Origin: Antedon bifida
Taxonomy: Eukaryota; Echinodermata; Crinoidea; Comatulida; Antedonidae
Direction: 5' to 3'
NCBI GenBank assembly: GCA_963402885.1
Contig: OY727097.1
Coordinates: 30,125,401-30,189,400 of the forward strand
Length of the DNA stretch: 64,000 nucleotides
How positions within the stretch are numbered: the stretch's first letter is position 1; every line of letters begins with the position of its first letter. The notes beneath the pieces were generated by a model. That model saw nothing but the letters and a program-made list of their open reading frames with translations, was not told the origin of the DNA and searched no databases. Positions 6,340 to 62,892 of this stretch are shown one piece after another. The position numbers were made by a program, and so were the translations under genes.

Positions 6340-6540
6340 AAAGTCGAAAAATGAAAGGGTCGAAATGTTGTGAAAATATCTCTGTGCTAAAGTAGTACAG
6401 GGACATTTTTCAAAACACTCTTTTATTTCTTGAAAAATTGACATGCGCAGAATCACGTAATGTGTTATGCGCATGTTAACTCAACAATTTTCAAAAGTCG
6501 ATATTTTTGCCATTTTCCGAAAAAAAATTTTTTTTTTAAA
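6340..6540. repeat. Diverged left edge of the palindromic satellite
   Basis: Contains GTCGAAAAATG, GTAGTACAGGGACA and the palindrome ATTGACATGCGCAGAA ... TTATGCGCATGTTAA, which are degenerate versions of both palindromes in the array to the right. Its loop word AATGTGTT and the following CTCAAC reappear at the right boundary of the array (10427-10445). Confidence 0.6.
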
Positions 6541-7030
6541 TGGCAAAATTTTGACCCTTTTATTTTTCACCATAACAAGTTTCTATGTCACTATAAGTAT
6601 AGGTGATGATAACGCAATATATGATCATATATAGCAATATTATCGCAAAATAATTGAATTTAAAAAACTAGATATTTTGGCCATTTTTCGAAAAAATCCC
6701 TATACTATAGTACATGGATTTTTTTCAAAAATGGCCAAATTTCGACCCTTTTATTTTTTGCCATAACAAGTTTCTATGGCACTATAAGGTGATGATAACG
6801 CAATATATGATAAAATATAGCAATATTATCGCAAAATAATTGAATTTTAAAAACTTGATATTTTGGCCATTTTTCGAAAAAATCCCTGTATAGTACAGGG
6901 ATTTTTAAAAAAATCGCCAAATTTCGACCCTTTTATTTTTTGCCATTACAAGTTTCTATGGCACTATAAGGTGATGATAACGCAATATATGATCAAATAG
7001 GCCTATAGCAATATTATCGCAAAATAATTG
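6540..7030. repeat. Short variant array, ~182-191-bp units
   Basis: About 2.6 units marked by GTTTCTATG at 6579, 6770 and 6952. Each unit carries the CGAAAAAATCCCT ... ACTATAGTACA ... GGCCAAATTTCGACCC palindrome. In place of the GCGCAGA hairpin of the main array it carries GTGATGATAACGCAATATAT and AGCAATATTATCGCAAAATA. It is a distinct subfamily sharing one of the two palindromes of the main array. Confidence 0.75.
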
Positions 7031-10000
7031 AATTGCCAAATTTCGACCTTTTTATTTTTCGATGAAACTGGTTACTATAGCATAATTGACATGCGCAGAA
7101 CCCAATATTCGACTATGCGCATGTTTATTATGCTATAGTAACCATTTATGACAAAAAATAAAAGTGTAGAAAAATGGCCCTTTTTCGAAAATTTCCCTGT
7201 ACTATAGTACAGGGACTTTTCCAAAAATTGCCAAATTTTGATAAAACTGATTACTATAGCATAATTGACATGCGCAGAACCCAATATTCGACTCTGCGCA
7301 TGTTTATTATGCTATAGCATGGATTAAAGAATATTCTATTCTTTAATCCATGGCTATAGTAACCATTTAAAATAAAAGGGGCGAAAAATAGCTCTTTTTC
7401 GAAAATTTCCCTGTACTATAGTACAGGGACTTTTCCAAAAATTGCCAAATTTCGACCTTTTTATTTTTCAAAAAAACTGGTTACTATAGCATAATTGACA
7501 TGCGCAGAACCCAATATTCGACTCTGCGCATGTTTAGTATGCTATAGTAACCATTTATGACAAAAAATAAAAGTGTCGAAAAATGGCCCTTTTTCGAAAA
7601 TTTTCCTGAACTATAGCACAGGGATTTTTTCAAAAAATTGCCAAATTTCGACCTTTTTATTTTTTGATAAAACTGATTACTATAGCATAATTGACATGCG
7701 CAGAACCCAATATTCGACTCTGCGCATGTTTATTACGCTATAGTAACCATTTATGGCAAAAAATAAAAGGGCGAAAAATGGCTCTTTTTCGAAAATTTCC
7801 CTGTACTATAGTACAGGGACTTTTCCAAAAATTGCCAAATTTCGACCTTTTTATTTTTCAAAAAAACTGGTTACTATAGCATAATTGACATGCGCAGAAC
7901 CCAATATTCGACTCTGCGCATGTTTAGTATGCTATAGTAACCATTTATGACAAAAAATAAAAGTGTCGAAAAATGGCCCTTTTTCGAAAATTTTCCTGAA
8001 CTATAGTACAGGGATTTTTTCAAAAAATTGCCAAATTTCGACCTTTTTATTTTTCGATAAAACTGATTACTATAGCATAATTAACATGCGCAGAACACAA
8101 TATTCGACTCTGCGCATGTTTATTATGCTATAGTAACCATTTTTGACAAAAAATAAAAGTGTCGAAAAATGGCCCTTTTTCGAAAATTTTCCTGAACTAT
8201 AGCACAGGGATTTTTTCAAAAAATTGCCAAATTTCGACCTTTTTATTTTTTGATAAAACTGATTACTATAGCATAATTGACATGCGCAGAACCCAATATT
8301 CGACTCTGCGCATGTTTATTATGCTATAGTAACCATTTATGACAAAAAATAAAAGGGGCGAAAAATGGCTCTTTTTCGAAAATGTCCCTGTACTATAGTA
8401 CAAGGACTTTTCCAAAAATTGCCAAATTTCGACCTTTTTATTTTTCGATAAAACTGATTACTATAGCATAATTGACATGCGCAGAACCCAATATTCGACT
8501 CTGCGCATGTTTATTATGCTATAGTAACCATTTATGACAAAAAATAAAAGTGTCGAAAAATGCCCCTTTTTCGAAAATTTTCCTGAACTATAGCAGAGGG
8601 ATTTTTTCAAAAAATTGCCAAATTTCGACCTTTTTATTTTTTGATAAAACTGATTACTATAGCATAATTGACATGCGCAGAACCCAATATTCGACTCTGC
8701 GCATGTTTATTATGCTATAGTAACCATTTATGGCAAAAAATAAAAGGGGCGAAAAATGGCTCTTTTTCGAAAATTTCCCTGTACTATAGTACAGGGACTT
8801 TTCCAAAAATTGCCAAATTTCGACCTTTTTATTTTTTGATAAAACTGATTACTATAGCATAATTGACATGCGCAGAACCCAATATTCGACTCTGCACATG
8901 TTTAGTATGCTATAGTAACCATTTATGACAAAAAATAAAAGTGTCAAATAATGGCCCTTTTTCGAAAATTTCCCTGAACTATAGTACAGGGATTTTTTCC
9001 AAAAATTGCCAAATTTCGACCTTTTTATTTTTCGATAAAACTGATTACTATAGCATAATTAACATGCGCAGAACACAATATTCGACTCTGCGCATGTTTA
9101 TTATGCTATAGTAACCATTTTGACAAAAAATAAAAGGGGCGAAAAATGGCTCTTTTTCGAAAATTTCCCTGTACTATAGTACAAGGACTTTTCCAAAATT
9201 TGCCAAATTTCGACCTTTTTATTTTTCGATAAAACTGATTACTATAGCATAATTGACATGCGCAGAACCCAATATTCGACTCTGCACATGTTTAGTATGC
9301 TATAGTAACCATTTATGACAAAAAATAAAAGTGTCAAATAATGGCCCTTTTTCGAAAATTTCCCTGAACTATAGTACAGGGATTTTTTCAAAAAATTGCC
9401 AAATTTCGACCTTTTTATTTTTTGATAAAACTGATTACTATAGCATAATTGACATGCGCAGAACCCAATATTCGACTCTGCGCATGTTTATTATGCTATA
9501 GTAACCATTTATGACAAAAAATAAAAGGGGCGAAAAATGGCTCTTTTTCGAAAATTTCCCTGTAGGTACTATAGTACAGGGACTTTTCCAAAAATTGCCA
9601 AATTTCGACCTTTTTATTTTTCGATAAAACTGGTTACTATAGCATAATTGACATGCGCAGAACCCAATATTCGACTCTGCGCATATTTATTATGCTATAG
9701 TAACCATTTATGACAAAAAATAAAAGGGGCGAAAAATGGCTCTTTTTCGAAAATTTCCCTGTACTATAGTACAGGGAATTTTTCAAAAAATGCCAATTTT
9801 CGACCTTTTTATTTTTAGATAAAACTGATTACTAAAGCATAATTAACATGCGCAGAACACAATATTCGACTCTGCGCATGTTTATTATGCTATAGTAACC
9901 ATTTTTGACAAAAAATAAAAGGGTCGGAATATGACCCTTTTTTGAAAATTTCCCTGAACTATAGCACAGGGATTTTTTCAAAAAATTGCCAAATTTCGAC

Positions 10001-10425
10001 CTTTTTATTTGTTGATAAAACTGATTACTATAGCATAATTGACATGCGCAGAACCCAATATTCGACTCTGCGCATATTTATTATGCTACAGTAACCATTT
10101 ATGACAAAAAATAAAAGTGTCGAAAAATGGCCCTTTTTTTCAAAAAATTGCTAAATTTCGACCTTTATATTTTTCGATAAAACTGATTACTAAAGCATAA
10201 TTGACATGCGCAGAACCCAATATTCGACTCTGCGCATGTTTATTATGCTATAGTAACCATTTATGACAAAAAATAAAAGGATCGGAATATGACCCCTTTT
10301 CGAAAACTTCCCTGTACTATAGTACAGGGATTTTTTTTTTAAATTGTCAAATTTCGACCTTTTTATTTTTCAATAAAACTGATTACTATAGCATAATTGA
10401 CATGCGCAGAACCCAATATTCGACT
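7031..10425. repeat. Satellite-like array of alternating palindromes, ~195-bp unit
   Basis: Eighteen cores of ATGCGCAGAA start at about 7091, 7270, 7500, 7696, 7890, 8086, 8282, 8477, 8672, 8869, 9064, 9259, 9453, 9652, 9849, 10043, 10205 and 10402. Spacing is mostly 194-199 bp. Each unit holds palindrome 1 (TTACTATAGCATAAT, GACATGCGCAGA, a 14-15-nt loop, TCTGCGCATG, TTATGCTATAGTAACC) and palindrome 2 (AATAAAAG, GTCGAAAAATGGC, a centre CCTGTACTATAGTACAGG, GCCAAATTTCGAC, TTTTTATTTTT). The array is therefore nearly strand-symmetric. Units alternate between a GTGTCGAAAAATGGCCC form and a GGGGCGAAAAATGGCTC form. Short frames beginning at the internal ATG of palindrome 1 are by-products of the repeat. 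Confidence 0.93.
7311..7359. repeat. 35-bp hairpin insertion inside one satellite unit
   Basis: A perfect hairpin at 7318-7352 (ATGGATTAAAGAATA, spacer TTC, TATTCTTTAATCCAT) interrupts the right arm of palindrome 1. It is flanked by the direct repeat GCTATAG (7311-7317 and 7353-7359). Neighbouring units have a single GCTATAG and no insert. Confidence 0.85.
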
Positions 10426-11280
10426 CAGAATAATGTGTTCTCAACAAATAAGGATTTTTTTTCGAAAAATGTCTAAAACATCGACTTTTTAAAATTAAAT
10501 TATTTTGTGATTAAGTTACTATATCGCAATATCATTAATCTTGCACGACAACAGTTTATTTTTAGAACAAACCCCATAGAAAGACAGTCGATTTTGAAAA
10601 CATGATGCTCAGCCAGGTTGAAACGATTAATAGCTTCCTATAAAGTTGGATCCACAACATCGATCTACCTTGTTGTTATATTTGTTGGGTAATTGGCTCC
10701 CGCGGATTAAACGACATCCGACAACTAATACAGCCTTTTATCCTTTTTATTTGGAGTCAGTTTTAAACTAAGTCATACAATAACGAAAGCGCGCATTGTT
10801 GAGCAGACGACAGGTTGATTATCATTCAACCTTATAAATAGCAAGTCTCAAAGACAAACAGCGCCTACTGGAATTTTTAAAAATAAAATAAAAATTCAAT
10901 TCATTTCCTCACCAGATAAAGGTATAATTGTTCAATTTGTCTTTTATTGCGAAATGGTTGACTTCCGTTTTTGTATCGAACTTCTTTCATCTCTGTTGAG
11001 CCCATAGAAGCTCTAGGTTAAAATTAGGTTTACGATGGCTTTGTACGATTTCAATACCTTTCCACTTGCCCAGTGACAAGAATACTGTAGGCCTATATTA
11101 TATGTTTATAGTAGGTCTACCATAATGTTAATTATAGAGCTAGCAAGAAGTTGCATAAATGCTTACGGTAGATTTTCAGATTTCAAGTCATTAATGATTC
11201 GTTCTTGTTCGCAATTTTACAATATCGGCCTAAGATCGAAAAGAAAAAAGAGCTCAAACAAGGTGGTCGCCTAAACGATA
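10426..11280. other. Non-coding interval after the satellite
   Basis: The first ~60 bases still resemble satellite flanks (TTTTTTTTCGAAAAATGTC). The rest is unique-looking AT-rich DNA with no recognised gene. Confidence 0.5.
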
Positions 11281-19018: not shown

Positions 19019-20148
19019 CTTGTATGAAGTATGATAACACAAATTGATTAAGAGTTCCCACGCTTTTTCGTGAAGGCATCCACAGCAGTGCTCATTCATC
19101 AAGAGCAACACTGCTGTCCAATCAAAATGCTTAATAAATTCCATCTTAAGAATTATCCTCTCATTACTTAATTCCTTTCTGTTGAAATAATTTCAGCTGG
19201 TTCCGATATGTATAAATAATCACAGATTATTTTATTTCAATTTAGGAAATGGGTAATTAAAATCTTGGTTTGATTCAAGGAATCTATAATTATTTAATTA
19301 ATTTCTGGTTTCTACAATAAAACATTTGTTAATTCGGAGTGCTGTTTTTCAAGTAAATTAATTTTTAGTTTCTTTGAATATTTGTTTCTATAAGGTTAAT
19401 GAACTTTTCCGAAAATGGACTTGGGCCAGTCTTTTTTTTCTTTCTTGGGCCAGTTACATAGGCCTACAATAATGGAGAGCTTTTGCGATGTAATGCTGTT
19501 ACATCATGTTAATTCATTACATGTAGAGGGCCGAGCTTCCTCAACGATTCCTTGACAAAATTTAGGCAGATTCTAGTTCCAGGCAATGGCCGACGATATT
19601 ACCTGGTATTACCCACAAATCAACAAAACCCTAAAATACTAATGAATTTATTCTATACTATAAAAGTTTTATGCTTTTTTTGTGCAAAATAAACTCATGG
19701 GGATAGTATACCAGCTACTGGGCCACTAGAGTGGGTACAGATTTAATATTATATTTTACATAATTTTTAAATTATTTATTAAAAAAGTGCTTCGCACTGA
19801 CACCACACCTGTTGACAGGTCGATGAGCTGACCTTTGACACAGAGTTTGTTTTCCTCTTGGAGTAGTGATATATCTTCATCTAGTGTTGAACTTTGTATT
19901 GTTCGTAAGCCTTAACTTCCTGTGTCTAAGTTCCAAGGTAAATTGTCAATGTTGACATTATGGAAAGTGTTAGTATTTTAGTAATAACACTGTGTGTTGT
20001 GAAGTCTATGGTTGGTTAGTTAACAATCATCCAATCTCTCGAATGATCCGTCCAGGGTTCTAATATTGTTGACCAAATTCTAAATAATATAAAAAATCAA
20101 CAGTCTTCAATATTTGGAACAGACATACTCTATGTGTCTACTGACCTT
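19019..20148. other. Non-coding interval
   Basis: No recognised gene or repeat. Confidence 0.45.
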
Positions 20149-20326
20149 AGTATGGGGTACTTGAGTATGGGGTACTTGAGTATGGAATACTTGAGTACTG
20201 GGTACTTGAGTATGGGGTACCTGAGTATGGGGTATCCAAGTATGGGGTACCCAAAAGTATGGGGTACCTGAGCATGGGGTACTTAAGTATGGAATAACTG
20301 AGTATGGGGTACCCAAGTATGGGGGT
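20149..20326 (+). repeat. 15-bp minisatellite (AGTATGGGGTACTTG)n
   Basis: About twelve copies of a 15-16-bp unit with CTTGAG, CCTGAG and CCAAGT variants. Because the unit is divisible by three, it produces an artefactual repetitive Tyr/Pro/Ser/Thr frame on the minus strand, which should not be read as a gene. Confidence 0.95.
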
Positions 20327-21120: not shown

Positions 21121-21585
21121 AGTTGAGTAAAATACAGTTACTGAGTGAAATACAGTTACTGAGTGAAATACAGTTACTGTGTGAAATACAGTTACTGAGT
21201 GAAATACAGTTACTGTGAGTGAAATACAGTTTCTGAGTGAAATACAGTTACTGAGTGAAATACAGTTACTGTGAGTGAAATACAGTTACTGAGTAAAATA
21301 CAGTTACTGAGTGAAATGCAAGTTACTGAGTGAAATATAGTTACTGAGTGAAATACAGTTACTGAGTGAAATACAGTTACTGAGTGAAATACAGTTACTG
21401 AGTAAAATACAGTTACTGAGTGAAAAGCAGTTACTGAGTGAAATGCAGTTACTGTGTGAAATATAGTTACTGAGTGAAATACAGTTACTGAGTGAAATAC
21501 AGTTACTGAGTGAAATACAGTTACTGAGTGAAATACAGTTACTGAGTGAAATACAGTTACTGAGTGAAATACAGTTATTGTGTGA
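21121..21585 (+). repeat. 18-bp minisatellite (GAGTGAAATACAGTTACT)n, ~26 copies
   Basis: A long and very homogeneous array. Variants include AGTAAAATACAG, TGTGTGAAATACAG, a 20-bp unit (ACTGTGAGTG), ATGCAG and ATATAG. Low divergence implies recent expansion, so copy number is likely polymorphic. No open frame of interest arises. Confidence 0.97.
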
Positions 21586-25564: not shown

Positions 25565-27028
25565 TTGATATAGTCATAGTCATATAGTCATATATACTTT
25601 ATTGTCCATTTAAAAAACAGAAATGTGATTTGAAAACTGGCAAAATACAAAAATATAAAATACAATTTACAAAAACACACACAAAAAGTTAAGAGGCTAA
25701 AAATTGTTAAAATTAGATAAAAATTATTATTATTTAATTATATTATATGATTTATTATTATATTGCACTAACGATGACTTAAAGTTTAAATAAAAGCATT
25801 AAAATTACATGTGTGAGCTATAAAAATAAACAAAAGCGGTTACATTTTATCTTTGTACTCTGGAGTTATATAAGTGTATAGCATTAGGTACAAACGAGCA
25901 CCTAAACCGTTTTGTTTTGGTATTAAGTGCACGTAGTCTTATGCCAGAATTCATGAGAGCAAATTGTTTGTGAAGAGGATGTGTTTCATCATCAATGATA
26001 CTTTTTACTTTTTTTAACACATTTTCTTTATACAAGGATTCAACATCAGGTAAGTGCTCTCCTACTAGTCTAATTGCTCTATTTCCTATTCGATTAAGTT
26101 TAATTTTATCTTTTTGCATTGTATTACCATAAAAACAAACATTACAAAAAAGTATTACACTGAGAATTACAGAATTATAAAACAATTTAAGTATGGTTTT
26201 GTCAATTTGTAGGTACTTCATTTTTCTTAAAATAAACATCCTTTGGTTGGCTTTGCATGTGGCTTTATTTACATTATTTATCCAATTTAGCTTATTGTCA
26301 ATTATACAACCCAGATATTTGTACTCATTTACTACTTCTATCTCATTTTCATTTATAATCAGAGGTTCTAAGGGTTCTTTAATTTTCCTAAAATCAATTT
26401 GCATTTCTTTTGTTTTCTTTATGTTTAGTTTCAGGTTGTTATTGCAGCACCAGTGATAAAAATCACATCCTAGTTGTCTATAGCTTGTTTCATCATTGCC
26501 AGTAATGTATCCAGTGATGACTGTGTCATCTGCATATTTTACTATACAACATTCATTTGAATTGGCTCTGAAACTGCTGGTGAACAGTGAAAACAACATT
26601 GGGGAGATAACAGACCCTTGTGGCGTGCCAATGCTAACAGTTCTTTTATCAGATAAAATACCGTTTAGTTTAACATACTGGAACCTATTTGTTAAGAAAT
26701 TATATATCCATGAAGTCAATGTGTCGTTTACGTTCATTTCTTTAAGTTTGTGTACTAATGAACCAGGTTCAACGGTATTAAAAGCACTAGAAAAATCTAT
26801 ATACAAACATCTTACATATGATTTAGGCACATCTAAATGTTGGTAAATATTATGTAAGTGGAAGAGCACAGCATCTTCAACACTTCTATTACTCTGATAG
26901 GCAAATTGGAGAGGATCGAGAAAAAATTTCGTCTGATCAAGCAACTGCCTAAGTACAATCTTTTCTAGGCACTTACCAACATTGGATGTGATAGCTATTG
27001 GCCTATAGTCATTAAGTTCCTTGGGATA
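25565..27028 (-). mobile_element. 5'-truncated non-LTR retrotransposon (CR1/L2/Rex-like LINE)
   Basis: The element runs on the minus strand. It has an open ~393-codon reverse-transcriptase segment (27028 to the stop at 25847), a 3' UTR of about 280 bases, an AATAAA signal near 25600 and a short-tandem tail of TATGACTATA-type repeats ending at about 25565. The upstream APE endonuclease and ORF1 are missing: a TAA lies in frame immediately before the first RT codons (27029-27031) and no homology is visible beyond. Tandem-repeat 3' tails instead of poly(A) are typical of the CR1/L2 group (established). The exact clade is inferred from motif style only. The intact frame suggests a recent insertion. 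Confidence 0.85.
25847..27028 (-). CDS. LINE reverse transcriptase, C-terminal part of ORF2 (partial)
   Basis: Copies LINE RNA into DNA at the target site (target-primed reverse transcription). Motifs in order: ELNDYRPIAITS (RT block 1), FLDPLQFAYQSNRSVEDAV (block 2), YIDFSSAFNTVEP with the first catalytic Asp, GTPQGSVISPMLF (block 4), YADDT with the catalytic Asp pair, LNIKKTKEM (block 6), EYKYLGCIID (block 7), then a thumb-like region and C-terminal tail ending ...LYNSRVQR. There are no frameshifts or stops over about 390 codons. The open region begins right after an in-frame TAA at 27029-27031, so there is no proper start codon. The TTG at 26944 is only an arbitrary start within the domain. 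Endonuclease and ORF1 are absent, so it is not autonomous in this copy. Plus-strand frames across the region are shadows. Confidence 0.9.
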   Translation of the reverse strand, partial: YPKELNDYRPIAITSNVGKCLEKIVLRQLLDQTKFFLDPLQFAYQSNRSVEDAVLFHLHNIYQHLDVPKSYVRCLYIDFSSAFNTVEPGSLVHKLKEMNVNDTLTSWIYNFLTNRFQYVKLNGILSDKRTVSIGTPQGSVISPMLFSLFTSSFRANSNECCIVKYADDTVITGYITGNDETSYRQLGCDFYHWCCNNNLKLNIKKTKEMQIDFRKIKEPLEPLIINENEIEVVNEYKYLGCIIDNKLNWINNVNKATCKANQRMFILRKMKYLQIDKTILKLFYNSVILSVILFCNVCFYGNTMQKDKIKLNRIGNRAIRLVGEHLPDVESLYKENVLKKVKSIIDDETHPLHKQFALMNSGIRLRALNTKTKRFRCSFVPNAIHLYNSRVQR

Positions 27029-33524: not shown

Positions 33525-33677
33525 CTCTACTACACTATCAAAGTTTGTGACAAAAAAAGTGTGACGTGTCAAAATGTGGTAGTGATATGTGCAAATATGG
33601 TATTGATATGCACAAATATGGTAGTAGTATGACATCATCATGTCCATATATGGGCACATCACATTTGTTGTCACATA
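33525..33677. mobile_element. MITE family A copy 6, interrupted
   Basis: Left part CTACTACACTATCAAAGTTT, with three tandem copies of the AATATGGTA(G/T)TGATATG block, then GACATCATCATGTCCATATA and CACATCACATTTGTTGTCAC. The expected right terminal AAAGTTTGATAGTGTAGACA is missing. The sequence changes at TCACATA into the tail of a minus-strand LINE. Confidence 0.8.
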
Positions 33678-41159: not shown

Positions 41160-41316
41160 CTAGTTTGACAAAAAAGTGTGATGTGCCCAAATACGGTAGT
41201 GATACTCCCAAATATGGTAGTGATACTCCCAAATATGGTAGTGATATGACATCATCATGTCCATATATGGGCACATCACATTTTTTTGTCACATAAATTT
41301 TGATAGTGTAGACAAG
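41160..41316. mobile_element. MITE family A copy 7, left end missing
   Basis: Begins at CTAGTTTGACAAAAAAGTGT without the AGCTCTGTCTACACT terminus. Three tandem AAATA(C/T)GGTAGTGATA blocks, then ATGACATCATCATGTCCATA and the right end TTTTGATAGTGTAGACAAGG. Confidence 0.8.
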
Positions 41317-46184: not shown

Positions 46185-46333
46185 TGCTATCAAACTAGTT
46201 TGAAAAAAAAGTGTGATGTACCCAAATATGGTAGTGATATGCCCAAATATGGTAGTGATATGACATCATCATGCCCATATATGGGCACATCACATTTTTT
46301 TGTCACATAAAGTTTGATAGTGTAGACAGAGCT
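46185..46333. mobile_element. MITE family A copy 9, left terminus trimmed
   Basis: Begins TGCTATCAAACTAGTTTGAA. The middle has two AAATATGGTAGTGATATG blocks and GACATCATCATGCCCATATA. The right end TTTGATAGTGTAGACAGAGC plus T is intact and followed by TTA. Closely matches copies 7 and 10. Confidence 0.85.
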
Positions 46334-52400: not shown

Positions 52401-52668
52401 TTTAGGATGTCCGTTTAGGTGTCAACATCTCCACGGTCCCCTAGGATGTCCCTTTCGGTGTCAACTTCTCCAAGGCCCCTGGGATGTCCCTTTCGGTGTC
52501 AACTTCTCCAAGGCCCCTGGGATGTCCCTTTCGGTGTCAACATCTCCAAGGCCCTTAGGATGTCCCTTTCGGTGTCAACATCTCCACGGCCCCTAGGATG
52601 TTCCTTTCGGTGTCAACACCTCCATGGTCCCCTAGGATGTTCCGTTCGGTGTCAAAACTTCCATAGTT
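52401..52668 (+). repeat. 38-bp minisatellite, ~7 copies
   Basis: Unit GTCCCTTTCGGTGTCAACAT plus CTCCAAGGCCCCTAGGAT. Unit starts are near 52409, 52448, 52486, 52524, 52562, 52600 and 52639, so the period is 38-39 bp. It lies about 0.7 kb 3' of the CHIC stop codon. Since 38 is not divisible by three, the long plus-strand frame across it reads the unit in three rotating frames and is not a credible protein. Confidence 0.95.
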
Positions 52669-53350: not shown

Positions 53351-59689
<6,339 letters not shown>

Positions 59690-62766: not shown

Positions 62767-62892
62767 AGCTCTGTCTACACTATCAAACTAGTTTGACAAA
62801 AAGAGTGTGATTTGCCCAAATATGGTAGTGATATGCCCAAATATAGTAATGGTCATCATGTCACATAAAGTTTTGATAGTGTAGACAGAGCT
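62767..62892. mobile_element. MITE family A copy 14, full length, upstream of the POMP exons
   Basis: AGCTCTGTCTACACTATCAA to TTTGATAGTGTAGACAGAGC plus T, flanked by TTA on both sides (62764-62766 and 62893-62895). It carries a deletion in its right half (AGTAATGGTCATCATGTCAC). Confidence 0.9.

Follow-up and report, generated by a model that had tools for sequence, protein, structure and literature searches.

A satellite DNA whose whole repeat unit forms one imperfect palindrome occupies part of a 64,000-nucleotide stretch of the crinoid Antedon bifida (assembly GCA_963402885.1, contig OY727097.1, positions 30,125,401 to 30,189,400, forward strand), referred to here as the window. Its main array, belonging to a family designated P, lies at 7031–10426 and consists of about 17.5 palindromic units of about 195.5 bp. 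Each unit holds two axes of symmetry, a looped one (dyad 1) and a spacer-less one (dyad 2). Across the sampled arrays, small length changes cluster at spacer-less axes and not at the looped one, and array ends are likewise enriched at dyad 2. Judged from these traces, the repeat is probably a dispersed selfish palindromic satellite whose spacer-less dyad would be extruded, cut and rejoined.

One palindrome with two axes

Aligned circularly with its own reverse complement, the 195-bp consensus of the P unit matches in 158 of 196 columns with a single gap, whereas 40 Markov shuffles of the unit average 56% and never exceed 61%. This self-complementarity corresponds to a z of 20.9, its score being reached by none of 200 dinucleotide shuffles, so that the dyads described in the original prediction are present well beyond chance. 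A self-consistent mirror partner exists for 194 of the 195 consensus positions, around two axes lying 98 and 97 bp apart, and 79 of the 97 mirror pairs are complementary. The unit of about 196 bp is thus one imperfect palindrome, in which a half unit of about 98 bp recurs in alternating orientation. Given tandem periodicity and one dyad, a second dyad necessarily falls half a period away, producing two alternating dyads. The original prediction had taken these for two unrelated palindromes; they are the two axes of one whole-unit palindrome, and their alternation, which any tandem palindrome displays, is no double coincidence.

The near strand symmetry that had also been proposed holds to about 80%, the remainder being accounted for by the 18 of 97 mirror pairs that are non-complementary and by a GC skew of -0.11 across the array; the asymmetry is accordingly not confined to the dyad-1 loop. 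Nor do the two dyads share the centre CTATAG, as had been suggested: this motif centres dyad 2 only and occurs in both arms of dyad 1, whose own axis in P is AATATT within the 14-nt loop. With DNA parameters the unit is predicted to fold as a single hairpin of -59.6 kcal/mol (z -11.5), consistent with the proposal that the sequence is cruciform-prone. A 65-bp sub-period, hinted at by the three CTATAG sites per unit, was considered and rejected, the best internal self-match lying at 53 bp (0.46). The k-mer strand symmetry fell below shuffles for 6-mers (0.39 vs 0.50) and above them for 10-mers (0.13 vs 0.024) and was left unused as a measure.

Tandem Repeats Finder (TRF) places the array at 7369–10138, with a period of 196 bp and 14.2 copies, and reports an additional 391-bp period. 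The predicted tandem array of units of about 195 bp is therefore present where it had been located, although the satellite spans more than had been described, from about 6345 to about 10525 when a sister family, Q, is included. Within the P array, 18 dyad-1 centres and 16 dyad-2 centres alternate as predicted, apart from the deletion of one dyad 2 near 10120. The 18 dyad-1 loops lie between 7086 and 10397, with 14 of the 17 loop-to-loop intervals measuring 193–199 bp and 29 of the 32 dyad-to-dyad intervals measuring 97 or 98 bp. Mean identity is 93.2% between adjacent units and 95.6% between next-but-one units, and this greater likeness of alternate units constitutes the 391-bp dimer level. 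Since the half units differ at 18 of 97 pairs and whole units by only about 4–7%, we infer that the inverted duplication of half units is older than the present homogenisation.

Dispersed arrays, length changes and array ends

A genome-wide search, as the original prediction had proposed, places the satellite in many dispersed arrays. In the 315.6-Mb genome (27 contigs), a 401-bp piece of the satellite has at least 640 matches, those listed lying on seven contigs, and an exact 20-mer of the dyad-2 core occurs 1145 times, its reversed control yielding 0. With many head-to-tail, non-coding units at several loci, the repeat is a satellite DNA. Exact-pattern scans of viral and prokaryote collections gave 0 matches. 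As for its being an already catalogued satellite, three stretches of its letters have no match in open-licence literature text, and of two open-licence papers that join satellite DNA with cruciform, palindrome and spacer length, neither concerns such a satellite as judged by title and abstract start.

The sample analysed in what follows comprises 41 stretches: the window, 20 picked among about 150 listed of the at least 640 matches, and 20 picked from the first-listed of the 1145 core sites, all on contig C1. Two of these, L016 and L017, may belong to one array. The arrays, of 196-bp P units or 185–186-bp Q units, are dispersed, the shortest measuring about 0.3 kb and the longest over 10 kb. 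Unit consensuses from 21 stretches (the window and the first set of 20) are 77.6–84.8% self-complementary, and their joint consensus matches its reverse complement in 166 of 196 columns as against 158 in the window, so that the ancestral unit was probably more symmetric than the copy found here. A centromeric satellite is not indicated by stretches of 0.3 to more than 10 kb in many places on at least seven contigs, although a longer array may exist elsewhere. No common element accompanies the arrays among 30 flanks of 19 stretches: the 100 matches between flanks comprise 87 of an unrelated family of miniature inverted-repeat transposable elements (MITEs), four satellite remnants and nine other repeats, the last being six among the far flanks of L010, L011, L013 and L016, one between L013 and L016, and two within L021. 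A Helitron- or Helentron-borne repeat was rejected on the same comparison, the same element not being found on both sides of an array.

Length changes were measured between fixed anchors in all 41 stretches, a change being a difference of at least 2 bp. At the spacer-less dyad 2, bounded by the anchors CCCTG and CAGGG normally 10 bp apart, 48 of 293 sites are changed, in 32 locus-classes and in 20 of 39 loci; locus-classes are given because array homogenisation may copy a single change. Looser anchors, read on both strands, give 96 of 498. The looped P dyad 1 (14 bp), by comparison, is changed at 0 of 551 sites, its self-complementary pattern (1102 on both strands) having been recounted on a single strand, and five control intervals counted on both strands are changed at 3/437, 2/1013, 1/860, 1/422 and 7/577 sites. 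Moreover, the off-centre CTATAG copies in the arms are stable (1/462 and 4/449; 8/1001 with looser anchors), and the motif itself is therefore not the cause of the changes at dyad 2. The loop-less dyad 1 of family Q is changed at 16 of 93 sites (14 locus-classes). Hairpin energies of the two P axes are closely matched, at -70.9/-71.4 kcal/mol with 98-nt arms and -47.5/-46.3 kcal/mol with 70-nt arms, being less equal at 49-nt arms (-37.6/-30.7 kcal/mol), so that the two differ mainly in the 14-nt loop. By these counts the spacer-less dyads, namely dyad 2 and Q dyad 1, are hot spots of small length changes, and the looped dyad 1 is not. These counts supersede an earlier indel test confined to the window, in which five of eight events touched dyad 2, the events having been listed after inspection.

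The altered dyad-2 spacers are themselves palindromic again in 18 of 59 cases. Counted per locus-class, 13 of 45 are palindromic, as against 8.1 expected under a random null (P 0.001) and 9.5 under a slippage-like null (P 0.03). Some arrays have amplified larger deletions that span dyad 2, one of 74 bp occurring 23 times (L020), one of 64 bp 19 times (L015) and one of 107 bp 11 times (L024), and since units without dyad 2 are amplified, this dyad is dispensable for amplification. In L013, units with a 96-bp deletion of the dyad-2 region are likewise multiplied within the array.

Array ends point to the same axis. Of 76 readable ends (37 P, 39 Q), ends at a fetched border being excluded, 19 lie within 5 bp of the dyad-2 axis where 4.4 are expected (p 5e-8), and three lie near dyad 1; 57 of the 76 are elsewhere than at dyad 2. 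Removal of three ends with a repeated flank and two transposon ends leaves 14 of 71 (p 5e-5). The hot spot anticipated in the original prediction is thereby borne out in the sampled sequence, where length changes and array ends both concentrate at dyad 2, and the rearrangement points, as read from sequence scars, lie at the palindrome centre, as they do in palindromic AT-rich repeats.

Two loci illustrate what occurs at this axis. At L012, a 1615-bp element (185–1799 of that stretch) with inverted ends CTGCCCTGATTTACGAAAGGGCATTATCTCAA sits exactly at the dyad-2 axis with TATA on either side, and its longest internal reading frame encodes 126 amino acids. At L029 (with L049 and L050; C1:530750-537750), a two-unit P array centres an inverted duplication with arms of at least 3.4 kb. 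The edges of this array are symmetric about dyad 2: their midpoint falls at 1510.0, and the axis runs between positions 1510 and 1511. Identity between the arms is 96.1% in their inner part (2364 columns) and 99.4% in the outer 2244 bp. Indels between the arms, including one of about 85 bp, displace the axis of the whole arms by anything from a few bp to about 45 bp. One repeated flank segment is common to L029, L040 and L044, the L029 flank recurring in part beside the other two arrays.

Sister families and other features of the window

The Q family (185–186 bp) shares the dyad-2 half with P and carries a different dyad 1, which in locus L023 is a spacer-less palindrome around ATATATGCGCATATAT; self-complementarity of the Q unit lies above shuffles (z 5.3). 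By eye, the edge of L023 and the left margin of the window array each carry a third dyad-1 type, S, and TGCGCA is kept in every dyad-1 type compared. Among the Q units adjoining the P array in the window, the first lacks the dyad-2 core and the third has a core 3 bp shorter. The arm words of a 35-bp palindrome inserted into a dyad-1 arm of the P array have no second occurrence in the window, even with one mismatch allowed.

Table 1. Positions of satellite components and other repeats in the window
Feature	Positions	Strand	Remarks
Degenerate dyad-2 copy, left array edge	6345..6415	+	75% over 77 bp to P consensus, E 6e-9
Degenerate dyad-1 copy, third type S	6436..6479		arms CATGCGCAGAAT / TTATGCGCATG; blastn with P consensus (6436-6452, 6441-6479); type assigned by eye against locus L023
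Three 186-bp units of sister family Q	6486..7034	+	TRF 6527-7034, period 186
P-family array	7031..10426		~17.5 units of ~195.5 bp
Dyad 1, first P unit	7086..7124		14-nt loop, axis in AATATT
Dyad 2, first P unit	7194..7215		spacer-less, TCCCTGTACTATAGTACAGGGA
35-bp palindrome inserted into dyad-1 arm	7318..7352		GCTATAG on either side
Dyad 2 with 4-bp insertion at centre	9557..9582		
Unit with dyad-2 hairpin deleted	10100..10170		deletion of ~33 bp
Diverged inverted Q copy, right array edge	10446..10525	-	84% over 68 bp, E 1e-15
MITE-like family sites	23-72, 33572-33625, 41186-41246, 46213-46262, 53559-53611, 57437-57486, 62807-62848		
Other tandem array (TRF)	21124-21585		18-bp unit x25.4
Other tandem array (TRF)	20144-20324		15-bp unit x11.9
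Other tandem array (TRF)	52403-52655		38-bp unit x6.6

Beyond the satellite, the window contains a MITE-like family whose ends resemble CTGTCTACACTATCAAA (19 end matches at no more than two mismatches) and whose internal 21-bp tandem repeat, CCCAAATATGGTAGTGATATG, varies in copy number according to TRF; the letters of this neighbouring MITE have no match in open-licence literature text. An 8-bp palindrome, TAGGCCTA, occurs 14 times in the window as against 0.54 expected from base composition (4221, 6998, 11088, 17609 and ten more positions); the copy at 6998 is an insert close to a Q dyad-1 centre, and a few altered dyads in other arrays contain this palindrome too. A reverse transcriptase fragment lies at 25847-26944 on the minus strand (Pfam RVT_1, E 6e-25). 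Of the 30 window reading frames of at least 85 amino acids, ten searched against Pfam contain no domain, and the one further frame searched is RVT_1.

Mechanism, rival explanations and significance

The explanation that we consider probable is that of a dispersed selfish satellite scarred at its spacer-less axis. The spacer-less dyad would extrude to form a hairpin or cruciform, whose tip would be cut, and rejoining would bring small gains or losses of sequence that are often symmetric; an occasional break at the dyad would end an array or start an inverted duplication; and amplification itself would proceed by ordinary unequal exchange or rolling circle, with the orientation of units fixed. 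Several points weigh against this explanation. We infer the extrusion, cutting and nuclease action from traces left in the sequence. The stretches were author-chosen from ranked or first-listed matches and form a non-random sample, the counts refer to sites and not to independent events, since homogenisation of an array can copy one change, and the strict-anchor tests admit only sites with intact exact anchors. Under strict anchors, Q dyad 1 is reduced to eight sites, one of them changed; this dyad is moreover TATA-rich and mismatched at its very centre in many copies, so that slippage could explain part of the 16/93. The excess of palindromic products is weak under the slippage-like null (P 0.03). 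Insertion and excision of transposons at TATA, where the 1615-bp element of L012 sits, could have made some of the dyad-2 scars and is the chief competing account for part of them, and the inverted duplication at L029 is a single case, with arms differing by indels, that could be an assembly error. Finally, among mutated positions in non-complementary pairs of the window array, 19 of 42 are complementary, which may represent retained ancestral letters or arm-to-arm exchange instead of plain decay.

A MITE origin is a less probable but substantial alternative. Here the unit would derive from a foldback transposon ending at dyad 2 (terminal inverted repeat GTACAGGGA.., target TATA) that was tandemised or repeatedly took insertions beside its own copies; the array ends lying at dyad 2 would be element ends, and the changes at its centre excision footprints. 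The original prediction had likewise envisaged head-to-tail amplification of a MITE, and the shared dyad-2 half of P and Q, with their different dyad-1 cores, fits this part of the proposal, shared ends and differing middles being what such a family would present. The unit is an inverted repeat throughout, though its ends are not fixed, 19 of the 76 array ends lie at dyad 2, another element has inserted at the dyad-2 TATA in L012, and tandem transposons can, by a described route, arise when elements insert repeatedly into a target duplication (PMC12628747). Against it, the 41 stretches, which were chosen for arrays or intact cores, yielded no recognisable dispersed single copy flanked by a target-site duplication. 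In addition, 57 of the 76 array ends lie more than 5 bp from dyad 2, the constant orientation of units is unexpected for independent insertions, and footprints at element ends leave the changes at Q dyad 1 unexplained. Only in L029 do both ends of an array lie at this dyad, and the flanks there are inverted copies.

Plain replication slippage in short AT-rich motifs, with the dyad position incidental, is improbable. It draws on the composition of the dyad-2 core, TACTATAGTA, and of the TATA-rich Q dyad 1, as well as on the weakness of the palindromic excess against the slippage-like null. It is opposed by the off-centre CTATAG copies, so seldom changed in the same arrays, and by the other AT-rich intervals, which are changed at about 1% or less (3/437, 7/577). 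An assembly artefact is scarcely credible: palindromic repeats are hard to assemble and L029 contains a long inverted duplication, but the satellite recurs in at least 640 matches and 1145 exact cores, all units within an array differ, and the flanks of different arrays are unrelated.

Maintenance of the palindrome for a host function, whether at a centromere, in protein binding or as a source of hairpin small RNAs, is very unlikely. The strong fold of the unit (z -11.5) and the presence by eye of TGCGCA in every dyad-1 type would suit such a role, and paired columns are variable less often than unpaired ones (33/158 vs 15/36, p 0.017), the unpaired columns being partly defined by their variability. 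Conversely, mutations at paired positions of the window array disrupt the pair in 75 of 76 mutated cells, the remaining one preserving it, the P array has an asymmetric type, GAACTATAG, in seven of its 16 dyad-2 cores, and the arrays are short and dispersed. Rfam recognises 0 families over the window at gathering score, which disfavours the small-RNA precursors suggested in the original prediction; between 6300 and 10600, 71 sub-threshold matches at E up to 5 fall mostly to microRNA models. On balance, hairpin pairing is decaying and a selected hairpin is disfavoured; since pairing decays with no sign of upkeep, no host function is proposed.

The repeat can be set beside several known systems. 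Structurally it is a satellite of the whole-monomer-dyad kind, in which inversely oriented halves of the monomer fold together. Long dyads within the monomer are reported for Tribolium brevicornis (1061 bp), T. madens TmSat2 (704 bp) and Trichogramma brassicae (385 bp), and are termed not so common in that source (PMC13081366). The remark that ordinary satellites are not built in this way is thus fair, although precedents exist. As in those satellites, the monomer contains long inverted segments foldable as one hairpin; unlike them, the palindrome here fills the entire 196-bp unit, the arrays are short and dispersed, a sister family retains one common dyad with the other replaced, and scars mark the spacer-less axis. 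Satellites derived from MITEs or foldback elements, such as Xstir and miDNA4 of Xenopus and Tetris TIR-220 of Drosophila virilis (PMC9659126, PMC12628747), resemble the present repeat in their inverted-repeat units, dispersed arrays and families with common ends, but in the present repeat neither a single mobile copy nor a target-site duplication could be recognised. Pacific oyster likewise contains short satellite-like tandem arrays scattered over the genome, carried by Helentrons according to a title (PMC7492417, PMC8268682); unlike those arrays, the present ones have no common flank beside them.

The closest parallel for the scars is provided by palindromes that break at their centres. Yeast palindromes with spacers below 9 bp are targets of MRX/Sae2, their fragility dropping as the spacer lengthens (PMC8053094), and in human AT-rich palindromes the breaks occur centrally, Artemis and ligase IV having been implicated (PMC4940405). 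The satellite is similar in its putative traces of central breakage and in an apparent dependence on spacer length, which in yeast changes near 8–9 bp (PMC4940405, PMC8053094). It differs in being a tandem satellite in which each unit combines a spacer-less dyad and a 14-nt-loop dyad with the same arms, and in that its breaks are read from sequence.

One genome here supplies hundreds of units carrying both a spacer-less and a looped dyad, with matched hairpin stability and off-centre motif controls, whereby the spacer rule becomes countable in long reads and pedigrees. To our knowledge, extrusion and cutting of palindromes in ordinary chromosomes are known mainly from engineered yeast and bacterial loci and a few human translocation sites. 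A bolder proposal, to which we attach a rather low probability, is that the satellite is a natural, replicated and internally controlled assay of cruciform processing in a native germline, and that breaks at the dyad drive its spread by ending arrays, freeing palindromic fragments that could seed new ones and starting inverted duplications such as that at L029. With scars at the loop-less axis and none at the looped one, the satellite would offer a natural test of how palindromes damage chromosomes.

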